Virus record (IMG/VR): IMGVR_UViG_3300005056_000021
Coordinates: 1 to 28,707 of that record
Source: a virus
DNA length: 28,707 nt
Direction: 5' to 3' (one strand)
Below the pieces are notes generated by a model. It ran no database searches, had not been told where the DNA came from, and saw nothing but the letters and a program-made list of their open reading frames with translations. This document shows positions 2,325 through 21,059 of the stretch, in pieces. Positions within the stretch are counted from its first letter, which is position 1, and each line of letters opens with the position of its first letter. Position numbers and translations under genes: made by a program.

Positions 2325-4427
2325 CTACTTAGCGAAGTAGAAAGCACCGTCTTTCTTACCAAGAGTATCAATCATCTCTGATAAGTACTTACCTTCAAAC
2401 TTAGGCATACGTCTACGGTTAGTAGTTGCTCTGAATTGATTCTGGTTCATAACCTTATGACCATCATCATTAGTCATCTTGTTAGCTGCATCAAAGTACA
2501 TACCCAAGATGTCCAAGCCCATTGGGAAGTCATTGCTACGAGTGTTCTCACCCATACCAAACAACACTTGGTAAGACCAGATAACAGCTTGCTCTAACAA
2601 GTGCATCTCTGTAACATTAACTCTGAAACAGTCATGTACTGAGATGATGTGCTTAGCACCAAGTCTATGTAACTTAGCAACAATTAGTCTAGCCATCAAT
2701 GCATCAGTAGCTTGTATCATGTTAACGAAACCAGTACGTGCAAAGTCCTCAGTGTTAGTAGCTTGAGTCTTCAACTGGAAGTTCATGAACTTGTAGCTAC
2801 CTACTTCGATATCATACAATGGTGTGTCATAACTCATTACTTCATTCAAGGCATTAACCTTAACTTTGTAATTCATCTCAACACGGAATCCATCAGGCAT
2901 GCAATGTAATACACGACCTGTCAAGTGTGAACCGTAGTCTTTGATAGCTTTACGTACCATAGACATCTTGCCACCGAATGACTTAGATATAGCAGCATGG
3001 AAGCCTTTAGCCATTGCCTCACTAACTGAGAACTCAGGCTTATCAGAAGCTTTATCCTGTAACACCAACTTCATAGCATCTACTGAGTTAGTCTTGAAAG
3101 CTTGCTCTAGCATCTCACCTTTGTAAGTATTACCCATTAGTAAGCCTAGTAGCTCAAACTGTTCAGCTTTACACAAGCTAGCGATGTCTTGGAATGCAGC
3201 CCAACCTTGACCATAGAAGATACCCATGTATGACTTCTTGATACCACCACGAGATAGTTCACCAATGTCATTAGCTAGTAATGATTGACTACCTAACCAG
3301 TACGCATCCTTACCATCATCTACTGACTTGAATCCACAAGCAGCAGCTATGTCTCTATCACCTACCATTAAGGCAGCTAACTGAGGACCTGAACACTTAG
3401 CATCTAAGCCAACTGCCATCCCAATGTATGGAGTGTTGCCAGCTTGTAACTCACGCATGATACGACATGCTTTGATGAATGACCAAGGCTTCTTAACTGC
3501 TGTTATGTTACCTTCAACACAAGCAACAACAAATGCTACCTCACCCATCTCTTTTATCATCTTAGCATGTGCAGCGATTGTACCCTTGCCACCACTTACC
3601 ATGTCTTCTATCTCAGCCATGATATGCTTCTTAACCATCTTCACATCATAGTCAGTAGGTACGCCAACTAAGTCCATCAATGCACGACTTCTATCACTTG
3701 ATTGACCATTCGGTCCATGACAAGCTGCTTGGTACATACGACCGCGTCTATCACCTTTGAACTCTGACTTGTACGCCTTAGTACTGTCCATACGTTCACA
3801 ACCAGCTATTACATAGCCTTCTGCATCTTCATGCTTACCATTGAGTTCTATCAAGGCTGCATTCACTTCACGAGCTACATTCAGGATATGGTCATCCACT
3901 GTATATTCAGTAGCTTCTAGTGCATGGATAGCCTCTCTGAATAGAGCGCTGTCTTGCTTAACATCTGAGTAGTTGAATCTACGTTCTATTGACTCAGTAG
4001 TAGGAGCATATGCCTCTTGACGTAGACTACATAGGTAGATGAAGCGTTCACCAATGGTGTCTTCCTCAGTGATGTACTTAGCCTCTAGCAGTGCACTCAT
4101 TACTAGTACTGCTTGTACCTCATGGTTCATATCAAGGTCTTTCCACTTAACTGCCTTATTGTCTCTACGTATTACTGGATTGGTTCTTAGTAAGTTATCA
4201 CCAAACTCTTCAATGAATTGGTCTTCATCATCCATGTAATCAATAGCTGCATCAACGAATGATGTTGCGACTTGCATACATACGATTGGTGTTAGGTTGT
4301 AATGGAACAACTCAGCTGCCATAGTTGATACTAGAGCAGATGCGTTAATGTCTTGCATGTTGATTGTGTTCATAGTTGAAGCCTCGTTAGTTGTGTTAGT
4401 AGTTGAGTTAGTTGTTGCGTTAGTCAT
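2325..4427 (-). CDS. T7-like single-subunit DNA-dependent RNA polymerase
   Basis: This 700-aa protein carries the T7/mitochondrial-type polymerase motifs. DRRGRMY (226-232) matches the DWRGRVY region of T7. Motif A is GLDAKCSGPQ with D342, the first metal-binding Asp. Motif B is R393-x3-K397-x7-Y405-G406, exactly the spacing of T7 R627, K631, Y639 and G640. Motif C is SVHDCF with D599, the second metal-binding Asp. All catalytic residues are present. It is about 180 aa shorter than T7 polymerase (883 aa), mostly N-terminal to motif A, and begins with a Thr/Asn-rich low-complexity stretch. It should transcribe phage genes from dedicated promoters; the repeats at 1987-2120 and 710-736 are candidates. 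It ends in TAG. Its partner factors are unknown. Confidence 0.93.
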   Translation of the reverse strand: MTNATTNSTTNTTNEASTMNTINMQDINASALVSTMAAELFHYNLTPIVCMQVATSFVDAAIDYMDDEDQFIEEFGDNLLRTNPVIRRDNKAVKWKDLDMNHEVQAVLVMSALLEAKYITEEDTIGERFIYLCSLRQEAYAPTTESIERRFNYSDVKQDSALFREAIHALEATEYTVDDHILNVAREVNAALIELNGKHEDAEGYVIAGCERMDSTKAYKSEFKGDRRGRMYQAACHGPNGQSSDRSRALMDLVGVPTDYDVKMVKKHIMAEIEDMVSGGKGTIAAHAKMIKEMGEVAFVVACVEGNITAVKKPWSFIKACRIMRELQAGNTPYIGMAVGLDAKCSGPQLAALMVGDRDIAAACGFKSVDDGKDAYWLGSQSLLANDIGELSRGGIKKSYMGIFYGQGWAAFQDIASLCKAEQFELLGLLMGNTYKGEMLEQAFKTNSVDAMKLVLQDKASDKPEFSVSEAMAKGFHAAISKSFGGKMSMVRKAIKDYGSHLTGRVLHCMPDGFRVEMNYKVKVNALNEVMSYDTPLYDIEVGSYKFMNFQLKTQATNTEDFARTGFVNMIQATDALMARLIVAKLHRLGAKHIISVHDCFRVNVTEMHLLEQAVIWSYQVLFGMGENTRSNDFPMGLDILGMYFDAANKMTNDDGHKVMNQNQFRATTNRRRMPKFEGKYLSEMIDTLGKKDGAFYFAK

Positions 4428-7902: not shown

Positions 7903-9228
7903 TTAAAGACTCCATGTTGTAACGCCATCAGACGTTAGTGTTAATCTAGCAGCACCTACCCAAGTAATACTTGTGTCTGTACCATCTTTATCTTCTACCA
8001 AGTCAGTACCAGAACGTATTAACATAGGAGTTTGGTCGCTGTACTTATCAGGTAGCTCCACTACTAATATAGTGTCAGCTTCCACAGTATTAGCCAAAGG
8101 TATAGTAAATGTACCACTATCTCTAATTTGATTAATAACTCCACCAGTAATGACAAAGCCATTGATAGTATGAGGTATTAACTTATGAGAAGCATCTTCA
8201 CCATCCAAACCATCTTTAGCTCTTTCAAATACAGCCCACTCACTAACACCATCTGACACTAGCTCAACTAAGGCAGGTCCGATAAAGTTTAGTACATTAT
8301 CTGTACCAGTAGAGTTTCTGAATAAGTCACCACCATCAGCCGTAACACTAGGTGTTTTGGTCTTGTAGTTATCAGATAGTTCTATGTACATAATAGTATT
8401 TACATCAACACTGTTAGCAGCAGGAGCAGTAAAGCTTCCACTGTCTCTAAGTTGATTGATAACACCACCAGTAATAGTCTCACCTGAAACAGTCATGGGG
8501 TTTACTGTCGTAACACCTTCATCTACTGCCCAGTTATTATCTTTACGAGTGTAAGCCTTACCATCAGCAGGAGCATCAGGAATAGTACCTGCTACATCAG
8601 CCTGAGTAGGCTTATTACCTTCATGGTAAATACTCCAACCATCAGCATTTAAGTCTACACTATTAGGGTCAGTTACATTGGCAGCGTTATATACCATCAA
8701 CTTACCACGAACATTACCAAATATTAGGTTGTCGTAAGTAATACCTTCTACATTTAAAGCTATGATACTATTCTTATTCAAAAGAGTTAGGTCATTGCTT
8801 TCCCATAGTTCGGTAGAAGTACGTACATTCACTGCATCTAACTTAACTCCTTCTTTAGGTAGTAAGTTAGAGTAAGCACTAGCATTACTACTAAACACTG
8901 TACCAGCTACCCAGTAAGAGTTAGTTACATCTGCTATAGGGTCTTGAGGATTTGAGCCAGCAGCATCATTATGTGTAGTAATACACGTATAAATTATGTT
9001 ACCAGCCTTAACTCGCGCACCAGCTTGGTAAGCTATTAAGTCCTGCCAAGGGTATACGTCACTCTCAGCATAAGATAGTTTAGCTTTGTCTAGTCCTTGT
9101 AGGACATAGTTAAAATTTTGGAAGGTAGGTATTTCCGCTTCCCAACCAGTCTGGTATTTGGTATCAGTAGGGTCAGTAACCCCACCAGTATCAGCCCAGA
9201 TTAAATGTAATCCTTGAGGATTTGTCAT
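7903..9228 (-). CDS. Tail fibre protein with duplicated C-terminal domain
   Basis: This 441-aa protein begins with a segment typical of virion attachment (WADTGGVTDPTDTKYQTGW), then a carbohydrate-binding-like motif around residues 55-100 (YPWQDLIAYQAGARVKAG, then IIYTCITTHNDAAGSNP), a middle domain with YHEGNKPTQADVAGTIP as in many fibre repeats, and two tandem copies of a domain of about 95 aa. The copies start TITGGVINQLRDSG and VITGGVINQIRDSG and are joined by a GLDGED collagen-like turn. It follows the gpI-like baseplate gene, the usual place for a fibre. The fibre call is well supported by context; the receptor is unknown. Confidence 0.75.
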   Translation of the reverse strand: MTNPQGLHLIWADTGGVTDPTDTKYQTGWEAEIPTFQNFNYVLQGLDKAKLSYAESDVYPWQDLIAYQAGARVKAGNIIYTCITTHNDAAGSNPQDPIADVTNSYWVAGTVFSSNASAYSNLLPKEGVKLDAVNVRTSTELWESNDLTLLNKNSIIALNVEGITYDNLIFGNVRGKLMVYNAANVTDPNSVDLNADGWSIYHEGNKPTQADVAGTIPDAPADGKAYTRKDNNWAVDEGVTTVNPMTVSGETITGGVINQLRDSGSFTAPAANSVDVNTIMYIELSDNYKTKTPSVTADGGDLFRNSTGTDNVLNFIGPALVELVSDGVSEWAVFERAKDGLDGEDASHKLIPHTINGFVITGGVINQIRDSGTFTIPLANTVEADTILVVELPDKYSDQTPMLIRSGTDLVEDKDGTDTSITWVGAARLTLTSDGVTTWSL

Positions 9229-13432: not shown

Positions 13433-14395
13433 TTAGCCCCACCATTTGGTAGTAGGCATTGTAGTTCCTGGAGTTGGCGAAGTGGCAGCTACTTGCGTAA
13501 GCCAGTCACCTGTCCAGTTAGAACCTTTATGTTGAACTGATAATGCTTGGTACTTACTAAATCCAGCAACCTTATCTTTCAAGTAGTCTTGTGCTACTTC
13601 TAAGGTTGCTTCGTCTGTACTAGTTCCTAGCGTGAGCAGTTCTGTTATATCAAGAACTGAGGAAGGTTTGATTAGAGGGTCAAGGTTAGATATTACACTT
13701 AACGTAGCTGGTCCTATCTTAGGGTTAGACCTCATATTAGAAGTTGCTAATGTAATATCAGCAGGGTTACTAAAGTAGTCAGTCTGTTCAAAGTTCTTAA
13801 AGTCTGGCTTATACATAAGGACAATTTTGTTGCCCTCAGTGTATAAGTTAAACTTGAATTGACTACCAAGAACTTGCAAGATACTAAGCAAAGAGCCTTG
13901 TAGTCTTGCATGTTCCTGAGAAGGTACAGTGTTTAGTATTTCATTAGGGAAATGCTTAAACTCCAAACCTCCACTAAATCCAGTATCGCCTATAGCAGCA
14001 CCAACCATGGTAGCAAGAGAAGGTCTTAGTACCTTTATATCTACTTGCTTCTCTAAGAATACTTTACGTAAATTAGAGTAGCAATACATATTAAATACGC
14101 TATTAGGTACTTGTATTTCTTCTAGGGCATTACTAATATACATACGGTCTACTACTAGTTTAGGTTCTTCGTCATGCAAAGCAGTCTTAATAGTTATAAA
14201 GCTAGCATTACCTGCATCACTAATCTTCTTAATAGTATTTGGATTTAGGTTAGTTAGAGTCACCTTAGCTACACTGTAGTTAGGTATATGACGTACATCA
14301 AAGTCTATCTTTAAACTATCTGTCTCAAACACCAACTGACCATCTTCACTAAAGATTTGTAGTAGGACATATTGCCCAAACTTCTTAATAGCCAT
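13433..14395 (-). CDS. Baseplate hub protein (gp27/gpD-like)
   Basis: This 320-aa protein looks like the tail hub. It begins with a beta-barrel-like section (FGQYVLLQIFSEDGQLVFET, then FDVRHIPNYSVAKVTLTNLN), has a central GDTGFSG and a repeat barrel around residues 120-250, and ends with the typical hub closing motif VQHKGSNWTGDWLTQV, followed by a Pro/Thr-rich tail. Its ribosome binding site GGAGG (5 nt spacing) lies in the last codons of the tape measure gene. Position between tape measure and Dit-like protein supports a gp27-like adaptor that holds the spike. Confidence 0.8.
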   Translation of the reverse strand: MAIKKFGQYVLLQIFSEDGQLVFETDSLKIDFDVRHIPNYSVAKVTLTNLNPNTIKKISDAGNASFITIKTALHDEEPKLVVDRMYISNALEEIQVPNSVFNMYCYSNLRKVFLEKQVDIKVLRPSLATMVGAAIGDTGFSGGLEFKHFPNEILNTVPSQEHARLQGSLLSILQVLGSQFKFNLYTEGNKIVLMYKPDFKNFEQTDYFSNPADITLATSNMRSNPKIGPATLSVISNLDPLIKPSSVLDITELLTLGTSTDEATLEVAQDYLKDKVAGFSKYQALSVQHKGSNWTGDWLTQVAATSPTPGTTMPTTKWWG

Positions 14396-14396
14396 G

Positions 14397-17300
14397 TTAG
14401 CCTCCTGTGCCTATATTAGACTCTTCATCAACGTTCAAGTCACCATCTACATTAGTAGTAGTTCTTATCAAGTCAGGAGAGATTTCATTAGTCACTTCTA
14501 CGTTGATAACGTTAGTAGTACCTTTGCCTTCTTCTCTTCCTTGCATTGGCATATTACCTATGCTAGTACTAGGAACAGCATCATCAGCTGAATCATCATC
14601 AGCCCACCAAGTACCTTTACTCCAATCACCTTCAAGCATAGAATCACAAGCATCTTGCTTGGCTTGGTTCTCTTCATTAAGTTCACCACCAAACAATGCA
14701 CCGATTTCATTAGCTTCATTAACAGCCCAATCACCAACTACATAAACAGCACCTAAGCCACCAAGCAGTTTACCGCCAGCCCCTTTAAGGAACTTACCAG
14801 CATTGCTTGCAAAGCTAGACATAGCTCCTTTAGGACTACCTTTAGCTGCTTCGATTAACTTAGCAGACTTAGTATTGTTAGCAAACTTATTAGCTAGATA
14901 ACCAGCGGTAGCAGAACCTACAACAGCAGCACCAATACCAGTGACGGCAAGAGCTTTACCGCTATCTTCACCAAGTGAACCAGTAGCCTCTAGTAATGCA
15001 CGTTTCTCTTGTAATACCTTTTGTATTCCTACATTGGTTTCCATTAAGCCTTGTTCATTAATTCTGCTATCTAGACCACTAATCATTTCGGGGGAGATAT
15101 TACTAACAGCTAAGTCAGTCATGCCAAACATCTGACCAATCTGAGTCTTAGCTTCCCTAGACTTACCTTGCATCATACCAGCAACCATTACAGTTAACTG
15201 TTGAGCATCCATATCTTGGAACTCTCTAGGACTACTCGGCATTTCTAGGTTTCTAACTTCTTCTAAATTAGATGCACCACGAGTTGACATTATTTCAGTA
15301 AACTTAGAGGCAGAGGTTCTTTCATCATTGAAAGTAGTAACTAGGCTACCAGCAGTACTAATAACATTATTAATACCACTCTCACTTAGTCCACCAATCT
15401 CCATAGCTTTTCTCATACCACGTACTTGGTCTACTTCAATACCAGAACTAGCAGCTAACCTAACTTCATCCATACCTGACTTGTTGCCAGACATGACTAC
15501 ACTAGCTAACTCACCTAGGACTGCACCAGCTTTCTTGACTTCGTTTCCAAAGGTTCGTAAGCTAGATGAAGCATCCTTCGCTGCTTTAGTTGTTGCTTCT
15601 GAAGCCGCTTTCTCTTTGTCGTCAGCAATCTTTTGGTCTTCTGCATAAGCCGCAATCTCTGTAAGTGCAAGTTTTCTAGTAACAGCTTCTTCATCTGTAC
15701 TAGCTTTGAGTGATTTACTAACTCTATCATCTTGTTCTTTGTAAGCAGCACTTTCATAACCAGCCATCTTACGAACGCCAGCTACTTCATCACTAACACG
15801 CTTCTCTTCCATAGCATAAGCGCTTGATTCATAACCAGCCATCTTACGAACGCCAACTACTTCATCACTAACACGCTTCTCTTCCATAGCATAAGCGCTT
15901 GATTCATAGCCAGCCATCTTACGAGTATCACTAGCAGTCTTATCCTCTCTGCTTCTATCTTCGGCAGCAGCAGCTACTTCAACCAACCCAGCTTTCTGGG
16001 CAATCTTTTGTAGTTCTACTTTGTCAAAGGCTATATCAGATTCAGGTAAGTCCTTAGCATCAGCAACGGCTTGCTTCATCTTGTCAGTTTGTTCTTGTTG
16101 CTTTAACTTCTTAGCTAACCTAGTCCCACTAGCTGAACCACCACCACTAGAACTAGCTCCAGCCATAACTGCTGCTTGGAACGCTGTCATAGGTTCATCA
16201 ACTTCATCTTCTATAACGATAGACTCTTGTTGTCCTATTACTTCCTTAGCCCCAACTTGTGTACGAGGCTTTCTTTTCTTAGATTGAATTTCTTTTCTCA
16301 AAGCTTGGATTCCTCGATTGTCAAGGCTAGCACCTAGCTCTAAAGCCTGAGTACCAGCGGATATAAGTTCAGCTTGCATTGTAGGGTCAGCTTGTACAAG
16401 TTCATGTACGTACTCACCAGTGTACTTATCAAGCGCAAAGAAATGTGTTTGGCTCTCTTTAGTAACAGCCATTTGTAGTTGTAGTTGTGGAGTGTACTTA
16501 GTTAAAGCACCTTCCATAGAACCAGAAGATAAATATTTAAGCTCTAGTAAGCCAGCACTATTACCTTCATCATCATACAGCCTACCATCAGGGCTTACAC
16601 CAAAGTTTGGTATAGCAGCATTCTCTTCAAAGAACGCTTCCTGCATAGTAAGACCACGACCATGTTTGCTAGCTAAGAATGCAGCAGCAGCTTTATCTTC
16701 ACCCTCAGTACCCTCGCGAGTATGGGCGTTGCCAGTGAATGAAGTGCCAGTACCTAACCTTTCCATAGCTAGTTCGGTAGCACGTTCTTCTATGCCTCCT
16801 GACTTTAATAAGCCAGCGGCTGTGGAAGCTGTGATTTTACCAACACGTTGCTTTAGCCATTCCTTAGTACCTTGCTTCGGACTGTCTTGTATAGCGACTA
16901 ATAGTGATTCTTCTGTCTCCCCTTCTTCCACCCTTTCAGCTAACCTTAATATCTCACTGTCAGTTAGGCTACCTTTCTTATGTTTATCTAGTAAGTCAGC
17001 TTCTTCTAAAGAACTCTCTACAAGGTCATTCATGGAAGACTGTTTAAACTCGTCATCTTTCTGACCAGCATAGAAAGAGTTCCATTCTTCGCCTTGGATA
17101 GCAGCCTCGTTACGTAGGTTCTGCAAATCAGCTTGTTCGCCATAAGGAGTATCCCACCCAGCCATTCTAAGTTGGTTGCCTTTGGACTCGTCACGAGTTG
17201 TTATGGTTTCCTGTCTTAGAATCTTACGAGCAATGTTAGCTTTAGTCTGTAACTGAGACATAGCGAATGATTGGTCACGAGCTTGCTTGGCTTTCTCGGC

Positions 17301-18404
17301 ACTAGTAAAGGTTTGTTTACCAACTGCTCTAGGTTTAGGGAATATAGAATTAGCTAATGAAGGTGTACGTCTTAGTGCATCATTACGTTGCTCTTGAGTT
17401 ACATCTTCACGGAATACTTTATGTCCTTCATCACTCCTTACAAAGCGAGTCCTTCCAGTAGCGTTAGGTATTTGTTGGTACAAGTCATCGAACTGGCTAG
17501 AACTTAATCTATCTTCTGCTGTACCTTGGAACGAGCCATAGATACCTTGAGTAGACTTGATACCAGTAACACCAGTTTCATTTGGTAATGGAAGTAAGTT
17601 CTTAGAGCCTTCATAGAACGTACCATCAATCATACGTTTAGTGATAGATTCTTCTAATGCTTGTCTACGTGCATCTTCTACTGACGAGCCACGAGTACGG
17701 TCATCTAGATATACATCTGCAATCTCTTGAACGTACTTGACAGCCTTAACTAAGTCTTCATCAGACCTGCCTTGGTTCTCTGTCTGCCACTTAGTTTGAT
17801 TGTTTATGTTCCTTATCTTGTTACCACTAGTATCTAGGGTGTGCTTGTACTGACCTTTCGTGGCACGTTGCCCATCTACAGCAGGGCTTCCTTCTACCCA
17901 CTTACCTTCAAACTCAGGTATAGTGTTTCCAGCAAGCGCACCGCCAGCACCTCTAGTCATATACGTACCAGAAGAGTTTTGTAGTATAGATGTTACTTGG
18001 TTAAGTTCTCGTTCTTGGCTAGGAGGATTAACAGCACCATCAACTCTAATTTGTCTAGCGAATGCAGCTAAGTCTTTAGAGCCTATCTCTTCTGCAAATT
18101 GTTCTCTAGCAGCAGCAGCATCAATAGGGTGTATGCCAGATACATCATTACCTAATAAGACTTCTTTAATGCCAGCTTGTATTCTATATTCCAAGTGGCT
18201 AATTCTTCCAAGCTGCAACGACTCAGCAGTAGCCATACCCTCCATTAAGGATGGGGATGATTCATCTTCTGTACCATCTATACTAGCCAGCCAAGCATCA
18301 GCCATATCTTGGTCTTGCATTACGTCATTCAAGTTGTCTTGGATAGATAATCCTTCTAACTCTCCTGCTTCGTAATCATCATTACCATAATCATCGTACT
18401 TCAT
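14397..18404 (-). CDS. Tape measure protein with embedded YqaJ/lambda-exonuclease-type nuclease domain
   Basis: This 1335-aa protein is the tape measure, by position (after tube and chaperones) and by its C-terminal third: GIEVDQVRGMRKAMEIGGLS, hydrophobic segments near 1150-1173 and 1211-1228, and the closing NEISPDLIRTTTNVDGD. Residues about 505-690 form an inserted YqaJ-type nuclease domain: KQGTKEWLKQRVGKITAST (510-528, W516), GTEGEDKAAAAF (E567, E569), SPDG (D606), GLLELKY (E621, K623) and QLQLQMAVT. D606, E621 and K623 match the D-ExK metal site of lambda exonuclease, so the domain looks catalytically complete. Residues 1-500 are unrecognised. A 25-aa repeat lies at 828-902. Start 18404 has GGAGG. 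The protein scaffolds the tail and is ejected on infection; nuclease action in the host is inferred. Confidence 0.88.
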   Translation of the reverse strand: MKYDDYGNDDYEAGELEGLSIQDNLNDVMQDQDMADAWLASIDGTEDESSPSLMEGMATAESLQLGRISHLEYRIQAGIKEVLLGNDVSGIHPIDAAAAREQFAEEIGSKDLAAFARQIRVDGAVNPPSQERELNQVTSILQNSSGTYMTRGAGGALAGNTIPEFEGKWVEGSPAVDGQRATKGQYKHTLDTSGNKIRNINNQTKWQTENQGRSDEDLVKAVKYVQEIADVYLDDRTRGSSVEDARRQALEESITKRMIDGTFYEGSKNLLPLPNETGVTGIKSTQGIYGSFQGTAEDRLSSSQFDDLYQQIPNATGRTRFVRSDEGHKVFREDVTQEQRNDALRRTPSLANSIFPKPRAVGKQTFTSAEKAKQARDQSFAMSQLQTKANIARKILRQETITTRDESKGNQLRMAGWDTPYGEQADLQNLRNEAAIQGEEWNSFYAGQKDDEFKQSSMNDLVESSLEEADLLDKHKKGSLTDSEILRLAERVEEGETEESLLVAIQDSPKQGTKEWLKQRVGKITASTAAGLLKSGGIEERATELAMERLGTGTSFTGNAHTREGTEGEDKAAAAFLASKHGRGLTMQEAFFEENAAIPNFGVSPDGRLYDDEGNSAGLLELKYLSSGSMEGALTKYTPQLQLQMAVTKESQTHFFALDKYTGEYVHELVQADPTMQAELISAGTQALELGASLDNRGIQALRKEIQSKKRKPRTQVGAKEVIGQQESIVIEDEVDEPMTAFQAAVMAGASSSGGGSASGTRLAKKLKQQEQTDKMKQAVADAKDLPESDIAFDKVELQKIAQKAGLVEVAAAAEDRSREDKTASDTRKMAGYESSAYAMEEKRVSDEVVGVRKMAGYESSAYAMEEKRVSDEVAGVRKMAGYESAAYKEQDDRVSKSLKASTDEEAVTRKLALTEIAAYAEDQKIADDKEKAASEATTKAAKDASSSLRTFGNEVKKAGAVLGELASVVMSGNKSGMDEVRLAASSGIEVDQVRGMRKAMEIGGLSESGINNVISTAGSLVTTFNDERTSASKFTEIMSTRGASNLEEVRNLEMPSSPREFQDMDAQQLTVMVAGMMQGKSREAKTQIGQMFGMTDLAVSNISPEMISGLDSRINEQGLMETNVGIQKVLQEKRALLEATGSLGEDSGKALAVTGIGAAVVGSATAGYLANKFANNTKSAKLIEAAKGSPKGAMSSFASNAGKFLKGAGGKLLGGLGAVYVVGDWAVNEANEIGALFGGELNEENQAKQDACDSMLEGDWSKGTWWADDDSADDAVPSTSIGNMPMQGREEGKGTTNVINVEVTNEISPDLIRTTTNVDGDLNVDEESNIGTGG
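15753..15930 (-). repeat. 75-bp tandem repeat inside the tape measure gene
   Basis: Units at 15753-15827 and 15828-15902 are nearly identical at DNA level, and a third begins at 15903. They encode 25-aa repeats starting RKMAGYESSAYAMEEKR at residues 828 and 853, with a diverged third unit at 878 (RKMAGYESAAYKEQ). The near identity points to recent duplication. The repeat is charged and helical, as expected of the tape measure rod. Confidence 0.9.
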
Positions 18405-18613: not shown

Positions 18614-19012
18614 TTACTTCTCCTGAGATTGCGGCTCTTGGGAGACTACCTCTGCTAAACCTAAGCTGAAAAAATCTGCGTACTGGCTATGGATAACATG
18701 AGTAAATAACTCTAGTACTACATTAAGTTGTCCATCGAACATAGTGTTAATGGTTTCGGTAGTTATCTTGTTGCCATCAATACGTACTTGGCAGATAAAG
18801 TGTTTGACTAGCTGTGAGGCTAGTTTAGGATTTTCAGCATTCATCAAAGCTACTATGGCACCAGCCATATTCATCTCTGATATGTTAATAATGTTTTCTG
18901 AGCCTAGTATCTTACCAGCTTGGGTTAAATTTTCTAAGGCTACATCTACAGCCCAGTTAGGTATAAAAATTTCCCGACCGTCTGCAATCTTTCTTTTGTA
19001 TGGTTCGTTCAT
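18614..19012 (-). CDS. Tail assembly chaperone, upstream (gpG-like) protein
   Basis: This 132-aa, mostly helical protein starts MNEPYKRKIADGREIFIP, has the central NMAGAIVALMNAENPKLASQ (here split as NMAGAIVALMNAE and NPKLASQLVKHF), and resembles tail-tube-to-tape-measure chaperones. It sits between the tube and tape measure genes. Near its end, codons TTT-TTC at 18673-18668 lie in the heptamer T_TTT_TTC, a -1 slippery site. The unshifted protein has 17 more residues after it (SLGLAEVVSQEPQSQEK). Chaperones of this type coat the tape measure and recruit tube subunits. A terminator upstream (19037-19073) should lower its expression relative to the tube. Confidence 0.75.
   Translation of the reverse strand: MNEPYKRKIADGREIFIPNWAVDVALENLTQAGKILGSENIINISEMNMAGAIVALMNAENPKLASQLVKHFICQVRIDGNKITTETINTMFDGQLNVVLELFTHVIHSQYADFFSLGLAEVVSQEPQSQEK
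18668..18674 (-). promoter_or_regulatory. Candidate -1 programmed frameshift site T_TTT_TTC
   Basis: On the minus strand, codons GAT TTT TTC of the chaperone give the heptamer T TTT TTC in the correct X XXY YYZ phase. After a -1 shift, reading continues with CAG CTT AGG and stays open through 18608 to TAG at 18417. P2 uses the closely similar T_TTT_TTG for its E+E' product. No strong downstream pseudoknot was found by eye. Confidence 0.65.
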
Positions 19013-19093: not shown

Positions 19094-19576
19094 CTATAAT
19101 TGTGCTAAGTCGTCACCGTCACCACGCTCGAAGACTACGCCTTCAAAAGTGATAACCCAAGTGATTGTGTTCATGGTCTGACCACGAGACATTGCAGGGA
19201 TAGCTAGGATGATACCATTACTCATAGTACATTCATCGTTACCCATGTTGTCACGTAACTTACCTTGGATAGGAAAGATTAACGCGCCATCTGCATCTGC
19301 TTGTGCTTGTACGTAGTTAGCGTAGTCCTGTAAGATTTTATTCTCAGGAGCATTCATTAAGGTAGGGAACGTTAAGTCACCAGCCTTGATACGCTGTAAA
19401 GATACAACCATGTCACCGTATGCACCGAACTGAGTCGTTGCAATAGGCGCTCTACGCATGACGTTGATAAGGTTTTCACCAGTACCAAAGCCACGCACAT
19501 TTACTGTTTGATACGTACCACTTGCATTAGGAACTTCTAATAACAAATCTACGTTAGCAAAACTATATTGATACAT
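19094..19576 (-). CDS. Tail tube protein (DUF3277)
   Basis: This 160-aa protein has the DUF3277 pattern: MYQYSFANVDLLLEVP, VRGFGTGENLINVMRRAPIAT, GAYGDMVVSLQRIKAGDLTF and NGIILAIPAMSRGQTMNTITW. The fold is the common tail-tube beta-barrel, and it follows the sheath gene directly. Start 19576 has AGGAG 6 nt upstream. A strong terminator follows it. It should form the inner tube through which DNA passes. Confidence 0.88.
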   Translation of the reverse strand: MYQYSFANVDLLLEVPNASGTYQTVNVRGFGTGENLINVMRRAPIATTQFGAYGDMVVSLQRIKAGDLTFPTLMNAPENKILQDYANYVQAQADADGALIFPIQGKLRDNMGNDECTMSNGIILAIPAMSRGQTMNTITWVITFEGVVFERGDGDDLAQL

Positions 19577-19589
19577 GTGTATCTCCTAA

Positions 19590-21059
19590 TTATTCGGCAA
19601 AGGTGCCAGAAACTATAACTTCATGTAACGCACCTGCACCAACCATCTCGAAAGATAAGCCAGCGTACAGACGAGTACCTTTATCACTTAATGGTACATC
19701 ACCAAGAGCTACTGCAAACACTACGAAACCTTCTGGAAGGAAGCGACCATCTGGCAAGAAGCCAGGAGCAGCTAAGCCGTTACGTACCGCAGCTGAAAGG
19801 CTACGTTCAAGAGTAGCTTTAGTAGTGTTGATACCAGATTGTGTATAAGGTACTTTGGTTGCTGACTGGAACAATAAATTGAACATGTCAGTTTCACAAC
19901 GATTTTCTAACCACAGTAAACCATGAGTAGTATCTAACCATGAACCAGAAGCCATACGAGAATCTGAGTAAGCATTTACTGTCTTACCGATTTGTACTAC
20001 AGCCGAACCATTCTTGCTACGTAGAACAGCGAACTCGCCAGGAGTTAGGTCTTCGGCAGTGATGGTAGGAATCTGTTTAAGGCTCAATGTAATAGTTGTG
20101 TTGATGCCAGAGAAATTAACTGAGGCAGCACGACCAAATACAGCAGCACTAGGGTATTGGCTAGTAGACTTAGAGAAAGTACTTAACGTGTAACGCAATG
20201 TATTATCTTTACATAACGAGATAATGTCTGTAGTAATTACAGAACTAAGTACTGATAAGTTATTAGAGGTGTTGCAGAATATTTTCTTAGCACCTTCGGC
20301 AAAGTTAGCAATATCTAAAGTGTTCTCGCCAGTAGCTCCACCAGTAACATCACGATATTTCTTGTGAGTTACTAAACCAGTGAAATCAATACCTTGAGCA
20401 ACAGCTTCGCCTAAAGCTTCCACTGGAGTTTCAGCAGCAATACCTGAGGATAACTTACCTTGATGTTGTTCTAAGCCTAGTGCTTCGGCAGCGTTAGACG
20501 TACCAACACCAGTTGAGCCGTCAGCAAAAGTGATAGTTGATGCTATACCATTAGTTACAGAAGTAACTTCAAAGCCGTAGCCTGTATGGGTAACAACAAC
20601 AGATGAAGGAGTTATGGCATTGATAGCTGACTCGATAGCAGTAGCTACTTCCGCTAAGGTAGTAGTACTAGATAAGTCTAAGCCATCAATAGCAGACACA
20701 CCAACATTAGTAGTAATAGTTAAATTACCAGCAGTGATAGCTTTTAAGTCATCTAAGGTTTCATGACCGCCACCAGTTAAGGTTGCAGGTTGGTCTGTCT
20801 CAAAGCACATAAGTACTACGAAGTCAGTTGGGGTTGGGGTAGCTGCATAGAAAGCTGTGGCTGCTAAACCTACTTCACTAGTAGCACTCCAATCGGCTAG
20901 TACACTAGGTAAACCAGAGTAGGCACGACCACGTTCCGCAGAACCGATTACACCTTCTTCATTGGTTAGAAAACCTAGGATACCAAAGTTACCACCAGCA
21001 ACACCAGCAGGTGATACCGTGATAGATACATTAGCAAATTCTGTGATTTCAATTGCCAT
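19590..21059 (-). CDS. Tail sheath protein (DUF3383)
   Basis: This 489-aa protein fits the DUF3383 sheath family: MAIEITEFANVSITVSPAGV at the start, ANFAEGAKKIFCNTSNN in the centre, AAVFGRAASVNFSG, TLSLKQIPTITAEDLT, SGSWLDTTHGLLWLENRCE and a C-terminal strand region ending HEVIVSGTFAE. It includes an Ig-like insertion rich in Thr, Ser and Val around residues 110-220 (TITTNVGVSAIDGLDLSSTT). Start 21059 has AAGGA. It precedes the tube gene. Contraction of this sheath drives the tube and spike through the cell envelope. Confidence 0.93.
   Translation of the reverse strand: MAIEITEFANVSITVSPAGVAGGNFGILGFLTNEEGVIGSAERGRAYSGLPSVLADWSATSEVGLAATAFYAATPTPTDFVVLMCFETDQPATLTGGGHETLDDLKAITAGNLTITTNVGVSAIDGLDLSSTTTLAEVATAIESAINAITPSSVVVTHTGYGFEVTSVTNGIASTITFADGSTGVGTSNAAEALGLEQHQGKLSSGIAAETPVEALGEAVAQGIDFTGLVTHKKYRDVTGGATGENTLDIANFAEGAKKIFCNTSNNLSVLSSVITTDIISLCKDNTLRYTLSTFSKSTSQYPSAAVFGRAASVNFSGINTTITLSLKQIPTITAEDLTPGEFAVLRSKNGSAVVQIGKTVNAYSDSRMASGSWLDTTHGLLWLENRCETDMFNLLFQSATKVPYTQSGINTTKATLERSLSAAVRNGLAAPGFLPDGRFLPEGFVVFAVALGDVPLSDKGTRLYAGLSFEMVGAGALHEVIVSGTFAE

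Follow-up and report, generated by a model that had tools for sequence, protein, structure and literature searches.

A lambda-exonuclease-type nuclease domain inside the tape measure protein of environmental phages and Chaseviridae

The stretch of viral DNA analysed here (the window, 28,707 nucleotides) carries a long tail gene that, according to the initial annotation, encodes a tape measure protein (TMP) with a complete YqaJ/lambda-exonuclease-type nuclease domain in its interior. This raises the question of whether a DNA-degrading enzyme is truly part of a phage tape measure and, if so, in which cell and on which DNA it might act.

The gene is a single unbroken open reading frame of 1335 aa (14397–18404; minus strand, as for every window feature given below), with homologues in many independent contigs. 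PHROGs annotation placed it between a tail assembly chaperone (18614–19012; PHROG 11820, E 2.1e-15) and a baseplate hub (13433–14395; PHROG 196, E 7.7e-14), with tube and sheath upstream. The tail sheath (19590–21059) matched PHROG 205 (E 7.5e-88), and the tail tube protein (19094–19576), which follows it, matched PHROG 280 and PF11681 KPP10_Orf10. Because the order runs tube, tail assembly chaperone, this frame and baseplate hub, the frame is a phage TMP by gene position; in the PHROGs profile search, it matched no PHROGs TMP family. The window also encodes a tail-fibre-like protein (7903–9228) with a sub-threshold match to the carbohydrate-binding module CBM_5_12 (E 1.5e-4) and, at its edge, a partial RadC-like JAB domain protein (3–335; PF04002, E 5.6e-26). 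A divergent T7-like RNA polymerase of 700 aa (2325–4427), in which motifs A, B and C can be recognised, occurs in two long relatives as well (phmmer E about 1e-147 and 1e-206). Both of these encode a second, canonical T7-like RNA polymerase, and phages of this group appear to possess a pair of single-subunit RNA polymerases.

The profile PF09588 (YqaJ; cut-off 22 bits) matched TMP residues 515–649 with 39 bits (E 1.2e-9), spanning profile positions 1–148 of 150, and a comparison of the domain sequence with solved structures retrieved LHK-Exo (E 1.4e-8). The AlphaFold model of the domain, for which the input alignment held 24 homologues, reached a pLDDT of 89.7. Its closest solved folds were LHK-Exo (3syy, Z 20.9 over 180 residues) and lambda exonuclease (3sm4, Z 19.7 over 188), while Cas4- and RecE-like nucleases scored far lower. 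The active site comprises E569 of the GTEGE motif (codon 16698–16700), an acidic residue, the catalytic D606 of SPDG (16587–16589), the ExK motif E621-L-K623 (16536–16544) and Q640-x-Q642-x-Q644 (16473–16487), which together with R520 and S527 make up a complete lambda-exo signature; R520, S527, E569, D606, E621, K623 and Q640 are the lambda-exo residue set established for the YqaJ family. As modelled, TMP residues of about 505–700 (16305–16892) are an intact YqaJ/lambda-exonuclease domain with the restriction-endonuclease-like fold. The initial annotation had read a complete domain at 16300–16895, with D606, E621 and K623 at these very positions, and had suggested an AlphaFold model and comparison with PF09588 and lambda exonuclease; its reading was borne out on each point. 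Membership in this family predicts a Mg-dependent 5'-3' exonuclease that forms a toroidal trimer.

The nuclease is the sole recognised domain of the window TMP, as judged by Pfam matches above cut-off and by Foldseek on the N-terminal region. That region (residues 1–486; 16947–18404) is mostly helical and poorly modelled (pLDDT 64.5), and Foldseek yielded no match for it at E <= 0.001, a result that does not exclude a known fold. The idea of a second enzyme there was rejected, given the poor model and the absent structural match. The Thoeris inhibitor Tad4 was likewise rejected as a candidate at residues 200–265, where the Pfam match (E 0.014) fell short of the cut-off and only one of 13 homologues shared it. 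Towards the C-terminus, residues 1148–1172 (14889–14963) form a hydrophobic, candidate membrane segment with a Kyte-Doolittle 19-residue maximum of 1.51, followed by a weaker one at residues 1205–1231 (14712–14792; about 1.0–1.2). Repeat analysis detected, in the C-terminal half, a 75-bp direct repeat, present twice in full and a third time in part (15753–15924). This near-perfect 75-bp tandem duplication, built of KMAGYESSAYAMEEKRVSDEVVGVR units, lies where the TMP is variable and is a possible way to alter tail length.

The domain is conserved among environmental relatives. Using the sheath as bait, we gathered 53 IMG/VR contigs, and nearly all of those that reach far enough have the same domain in their TMP; across dozens of related contigs, the gene that carries it lies, as in the window, between tail assembly chaperone and baseplate hub. 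Searching IMG/VR for the whole TMP by short exact peptide patterns gave no match; the domain alignment, used as the query in another search, gave additional matches in two sharply distinct groups, namely domains within long TMP frames (195–300 bits) and stand-alone ORFs of about 206–277 aa (85–103 bits). After near-copies were dropped, 39 distinct environmental TMP domains were left. E569, D606, E621, K623 and the three glutamines are invariant in 39/39, and W, R, S, G, E, P, D, E, K and three Q occur in all domains of this set whose alignment covers the site. Among 29 full-length TMPs, the nuclease is the most conserved part, with a mean pairwise identity of 0.414 versus 0.155 for the remainder, and the dN/dS of the domain was 0.14–0.24 in five measurable pairs. 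These comparisons support the view that the catalytic set is kept under purifying selection. Bacterial and archaeal genomes searched with the domain alignment yielded a single distant ORF of 358 aa, in Azospirillum. In a quick domain tree, which carries a long-branch warning, the environmental TMP domains were split off by a branch with a support of 92 and the stand-alone enzymes by another with 99.

The window is a 28.7-kb fragment that includes the divergent polymerase, and the nearest cultured relatives of its sheath are Chaseviridae (43% identity to VPs20). Every Chaseviridae TMP scanned contains the YqaJ domain (VPs20, PVN03, ZPAH14, Fifi44, Spp001, PP101 and 4HA13); two of them scored just below the cut-off in the whole-protein Pfam search (19.6 and 19.9 bits) and passed the PF09588 cut-off when the genomes were scanned in six frames (24.7 and 25.2 bits). 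A glutamate equivalent to E569 and an ExK motif are present in 7/7. A tblastn search with two Chaseviridae domains retrieved at least 60 Cleopatravirinae-type and at least 28 Nefertitivirinae-type records. Flopper (MN850594), an E. coli K-12 phage of this family that grows on MG1655, has a homologous domain with 67.5% identity to that of Fifi44. PF09588 was found exactly once, within the TMP, in 8/8 complete Chaseviridae genomes and in four environmental records of 52–59 kb, and it was absent in 5/5 phages with more distant sheaths (EKP1, Rosemountvirus, Vibrio K203, Jedunavirus and Pakpunavirus). Direct sequence search of the phage collection with the window TMP returned stand-alone exonucleases only; the Chaseviridae TMPs surfaced by profile searches. 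The search for further TMPs with the same insertion, also suggested in the initial annotation, was thus productive in both environmental and cultured phages.

Profile-profile comparison revealed that environmental TMPs and those of Nefertitivirinae and Cleopatravirinae have their domains in identical order, with the nuclease matching at E 1e-8 to 3e-12 and colinear matches before and after it that are each weak singly. Mainly because of this colinearity, the data suggest one ancient fusion shared by the environmental clade and Chaseviridae, which probably predates the split between them. Both ZPAH14 and Spp001 have VEVK as their ExK motif. VPs20, a member of Nefertitivirinae, retains the D and the ExK but no longer has the proline and glycine of SPDG. 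Function could therefore be relaxed or altered in the strongly diverged Nefertitivirinae copies.

That an assembly or annotation error fused a recombination gene to a tail gene is a practically negligible prospect, since the same full-length, single-frame fusion occurs in many independent contigs and in complete genomes of cultured phages; this objection, raised in the initial annotation itself, can be dismissed. The errors appear to lie in split records instead. The TMP gene is annotated in two or three pieces in Shewanella phage Spp001 (11927–15387) and Aeromonas phage pAh6-C (1905–5499), the splits sit at different places, and the gene of the close relative SppYZU05 is intact. These splits are probably sequence errors in the records, and programmed splitting of the TMP was set aside as an explanation, given the intact close relatives.

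In Escherichia coli phage 4HA13, the TMP was found in CsCl-purified virions by LC-MS/MS, second in the high-abundance figure; the text does not state from which stretch of the protein the peptides come, and the nuclease segment is presumed to be present with the rest (PMC9699118). The claim that such tape measures are ejected into the host therefore stands in part: published proteomics places the TMP in the virion of this relative, and its entry into the cell would follow the behaviour of TMPs in other phages. The diffocin TMP runs along the tube as a trimer whose N-termini face the collar and whose C-termini face the spike (PMC11329794); the TMP of phage 80alpha has the same orientation and three copies (PMC11661146); and the lambda TMP was labelled from ManZ at the inner membrane during genome entry (PMC13190303).

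The form in which the domain is stored deserves attention. A folded domain of approximately 190 aa has roughly the width of the 4-nm tube lumen, so that its storage and refolding need explaining. A globular domain predicted in the diffocin TMP looks linearly stretched inside the tube (PMC11329794), and a similarly stretched form may offer storage for a domain that would hardly fit when folded. Chaseviridae tails measure 110–130 nm (PMC8472413), which, at the rise of 1.7 Å per residue of the diffocin TMP (PMC11329794), corresponds to about 650–770 residues, versus approximately 1250 in Chaseviridae TMPs. The tail is shorter than the TMP length predicts; on the diffocin scale, about 450–600 TMP residues would therefore not be simple tape. 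The tail-length arithmetic and the stretched-domain precedent point in opposite ways on the storage form.

We propose the following mechanism. A lambda-exonuclease-type nuclease (PD-(D/E)xK, YqaJ) would have been fused into the TMP long ago. With the TMP in the tail tube and oriented as in diffocin and 80alpha, the nuclease (residues 505–700 of 1335) would lie in the N-terminal, head-proximal half. Upon sheath contraction, the C-terminal part with its hydrophobic segments would exit first and help to open the inner membrane, and the nuclease segment would then reach the envelope or cytoplasm just ahead of the genome end. Once folded, it would degrade double-stranded DNA from free ends, preceding phage gene expression. 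On balance, and by analogy with TMPs of other phages, we consider it probable, if barely so, that the nuclease is delivered with the genome and is catalytic in the infected cell.

The likeliest substrate would be non-phage DNA, namely host DNA that is broken or belongs to a plasmid, or else the genome of a competing phage, although we put forward foreign DNA as the target tentatively and rate it below probable. The choice depends on the other recombination and replication genes of these phages. Stand-alone YqaJ enzymes are often partnered with an annealing protein. ERF was present in 2/2 control phages with a stand-alone YqaJ nuclease, while the models for ERF, RecT and Rad52, the three families searched, found no member in 11/11 genomes with a TMP nuclease; a pairing of the Lambda Red/RecET type, in which an exonuclease acts with one of these three partners, was not seen in those 11 genomes. 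The recombination purpose considered in the initial annotation is weakened by this difference; attack on host or competitor DNA and the disarming of RecBCD, which it named as well, are candidate purposes. TMP-nuclease phages also encode a separate FEN-type 5'-3' exonuclease for replication. Since this enzyme is present and the known annealing proteins are lacking, non-phage DNA is favoured as the substrate.

The same two observations count against what appears to be the main rival to a foreign-DNA target, namely processing of the ends of the terminally repeated phage genome. The injected nuclease would then resect 5' strands at the terminal repeats, leading to annealing, circularisation or concatemers. 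Lambda-exo-class enzymes typically resect 5' ends, and the half of the TMP that contains the nuclease would, by analogy with diffocin and 80alpha, adjoin the leading DNA end. Suitable substrates exist as well, since the 4HA13 record gives direct terminal repeats of 3120 bp and long direct repeats are described for the family (PMC8472413). Nevertheless, with no ERF, RecT or Rad52 protein available for annealing and a distinct 5'-3' exonuclease already encoded, we regard action on the phage's own genome as unlikely. The foreign-DNA target faces a difficulty of its own: exonucleases cannot start on intact circular DNA, which is a point against digestion of the host chromosome in that form.

Delivery could also be incidental. 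The TMP is synthesised in the infected cell ahead of its packaging into tails, and the domain might work there late in infection, for example by trimming DNA or breaking down that of the host ahead of tail assembly, and be packaged passively. Conservation of the active site is expected in whichever cell it cuts and is compatible with this view. However, a stand-alone gene would suffice for such a task, free of the size limits of the tube, and the fusion to the TMP has been kept across very diverged phages, which makes a role confined to the producing cell improbable. More improbable still is a structural, DNA-gripping module that holds the genome end or anchors the TMP and does not cut. Its likely head-proximal position, again by analogy, would suit DNA-end binding, but all metal-binding and catalytic residues are invariant in 39/39 environmental TMPs, an invariance that a pure DNA-binding role would not require.

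Delivery of an active nuclease is thus the reading we prefer, and it can be taken one step further. The lambda exonuclease ring consists of three copies, and a trimeric TMP would, we speculate, bring three nuclease copies together, the same number. On the most specific version of our proposal, which we regard as possible but rather doubtful, this phage family injects a pre-made exonuclease in its TMP, and three copies assemble at the inner membrane, beside the entering genome, into a ring like that of lambda exonuclease, clearing host or competitor DNA ends early. If delivery is true, these phages possess a conserved, virion-packaged DNA exonuclease delivered via a contractile tail. Storage of a folded enzyme domain in the tail tube and its delivery from there are testable in easy laboratory phages, as is the phage's gain from a nuclease that is present before the first gene expression. 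The domain would also provide a cargo to compare with the nucleases that contractile injection systems use as effectors, and with entry-site host defences such as SNIPE.

Most deposited records call the gene a tail fibre or a hypothetical protein, which would explain why its nuclease escaped notice. Three Aeromonas phage records name the enzyme, ZPAH14 as 'exonuclease/yqaJ' and LA93P1 and LA93P2 as 'exonuclease', while the ST32 paper names its 1241-aa gene a tail fibre and leaves the nuclease unmentioned (PMC6266442). In a full-text literature search that covered few subscription papers, no description of a tape measure with such a nuclease was found. The initial statement that no tape measure with this nuclease class had been described holds for the literature searched; it needs to be qualified in that the domain is annotated in GenBank and a TMP-related nuclease of another fold has been published (PMC11126660).

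The closest counterparts of the window TMP are those of Chaseviridae (4HA13, ST32/phiEcoM-GJ1, PP101, ZPAH14, VPs20 and others), myoviruses with a T7-like RNA polymerase, as in the window's phage group. They share the gene position, the place of YqaJ and the domain order, and are very diverged outside the nuclease domain. The Cleopatravirinae TMPs scanned also have a C-terminal SLT transglycosylase, and thus two enzymes per tape measure; no such domain was seen in the window TMP. Lambda exonuclease and LHK-Exo have the fold and catalytic residues in common with our domain, but they are free enzymes, typically encoded beside an annealing protein, whereas the domain described here is internal to a TMP. 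Muralytic TMPs, such as the muramidase TMP of phiIPLA35 as cited in PMC11329794, are likewise fusions of an enzyme with a tape measure; their substrate is the cell wall, not DNA. Polyvalent proteins are predicted to bring nucleic-acid-targeting domains into the cell alongside phage DNA, and the paper that describes them mentions neither tape measures nor YqaJ (PMC5512222). They are multidomain proteins of disparate activities; in the window TMP only the nuclease was recognised, and in the Cleopatravirinae TMPs scanned a nuclease and SLT. Of what has been published, Tme comes nearest in concept: it is an effector of a contractile injection system in Streptomyces davawensis, related to TMPs and equipped with an EndA-type endonuclease (PMC11126660). 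Tme is likewise a TMP-like protein with a nuclease in a contractile tail-like machine, but its nuclease is C-terminal and of the EndA type, with DRGH and H-N-N motifs, whereas the window domain is lambda-exo-like; furthermore, Tme belongs to a bacterial injection system and the window TMP to a DNA-carrying phage. What seems new here, within the literature searched, is a lambda-exo nuclease in a phage TMP as a family trait.
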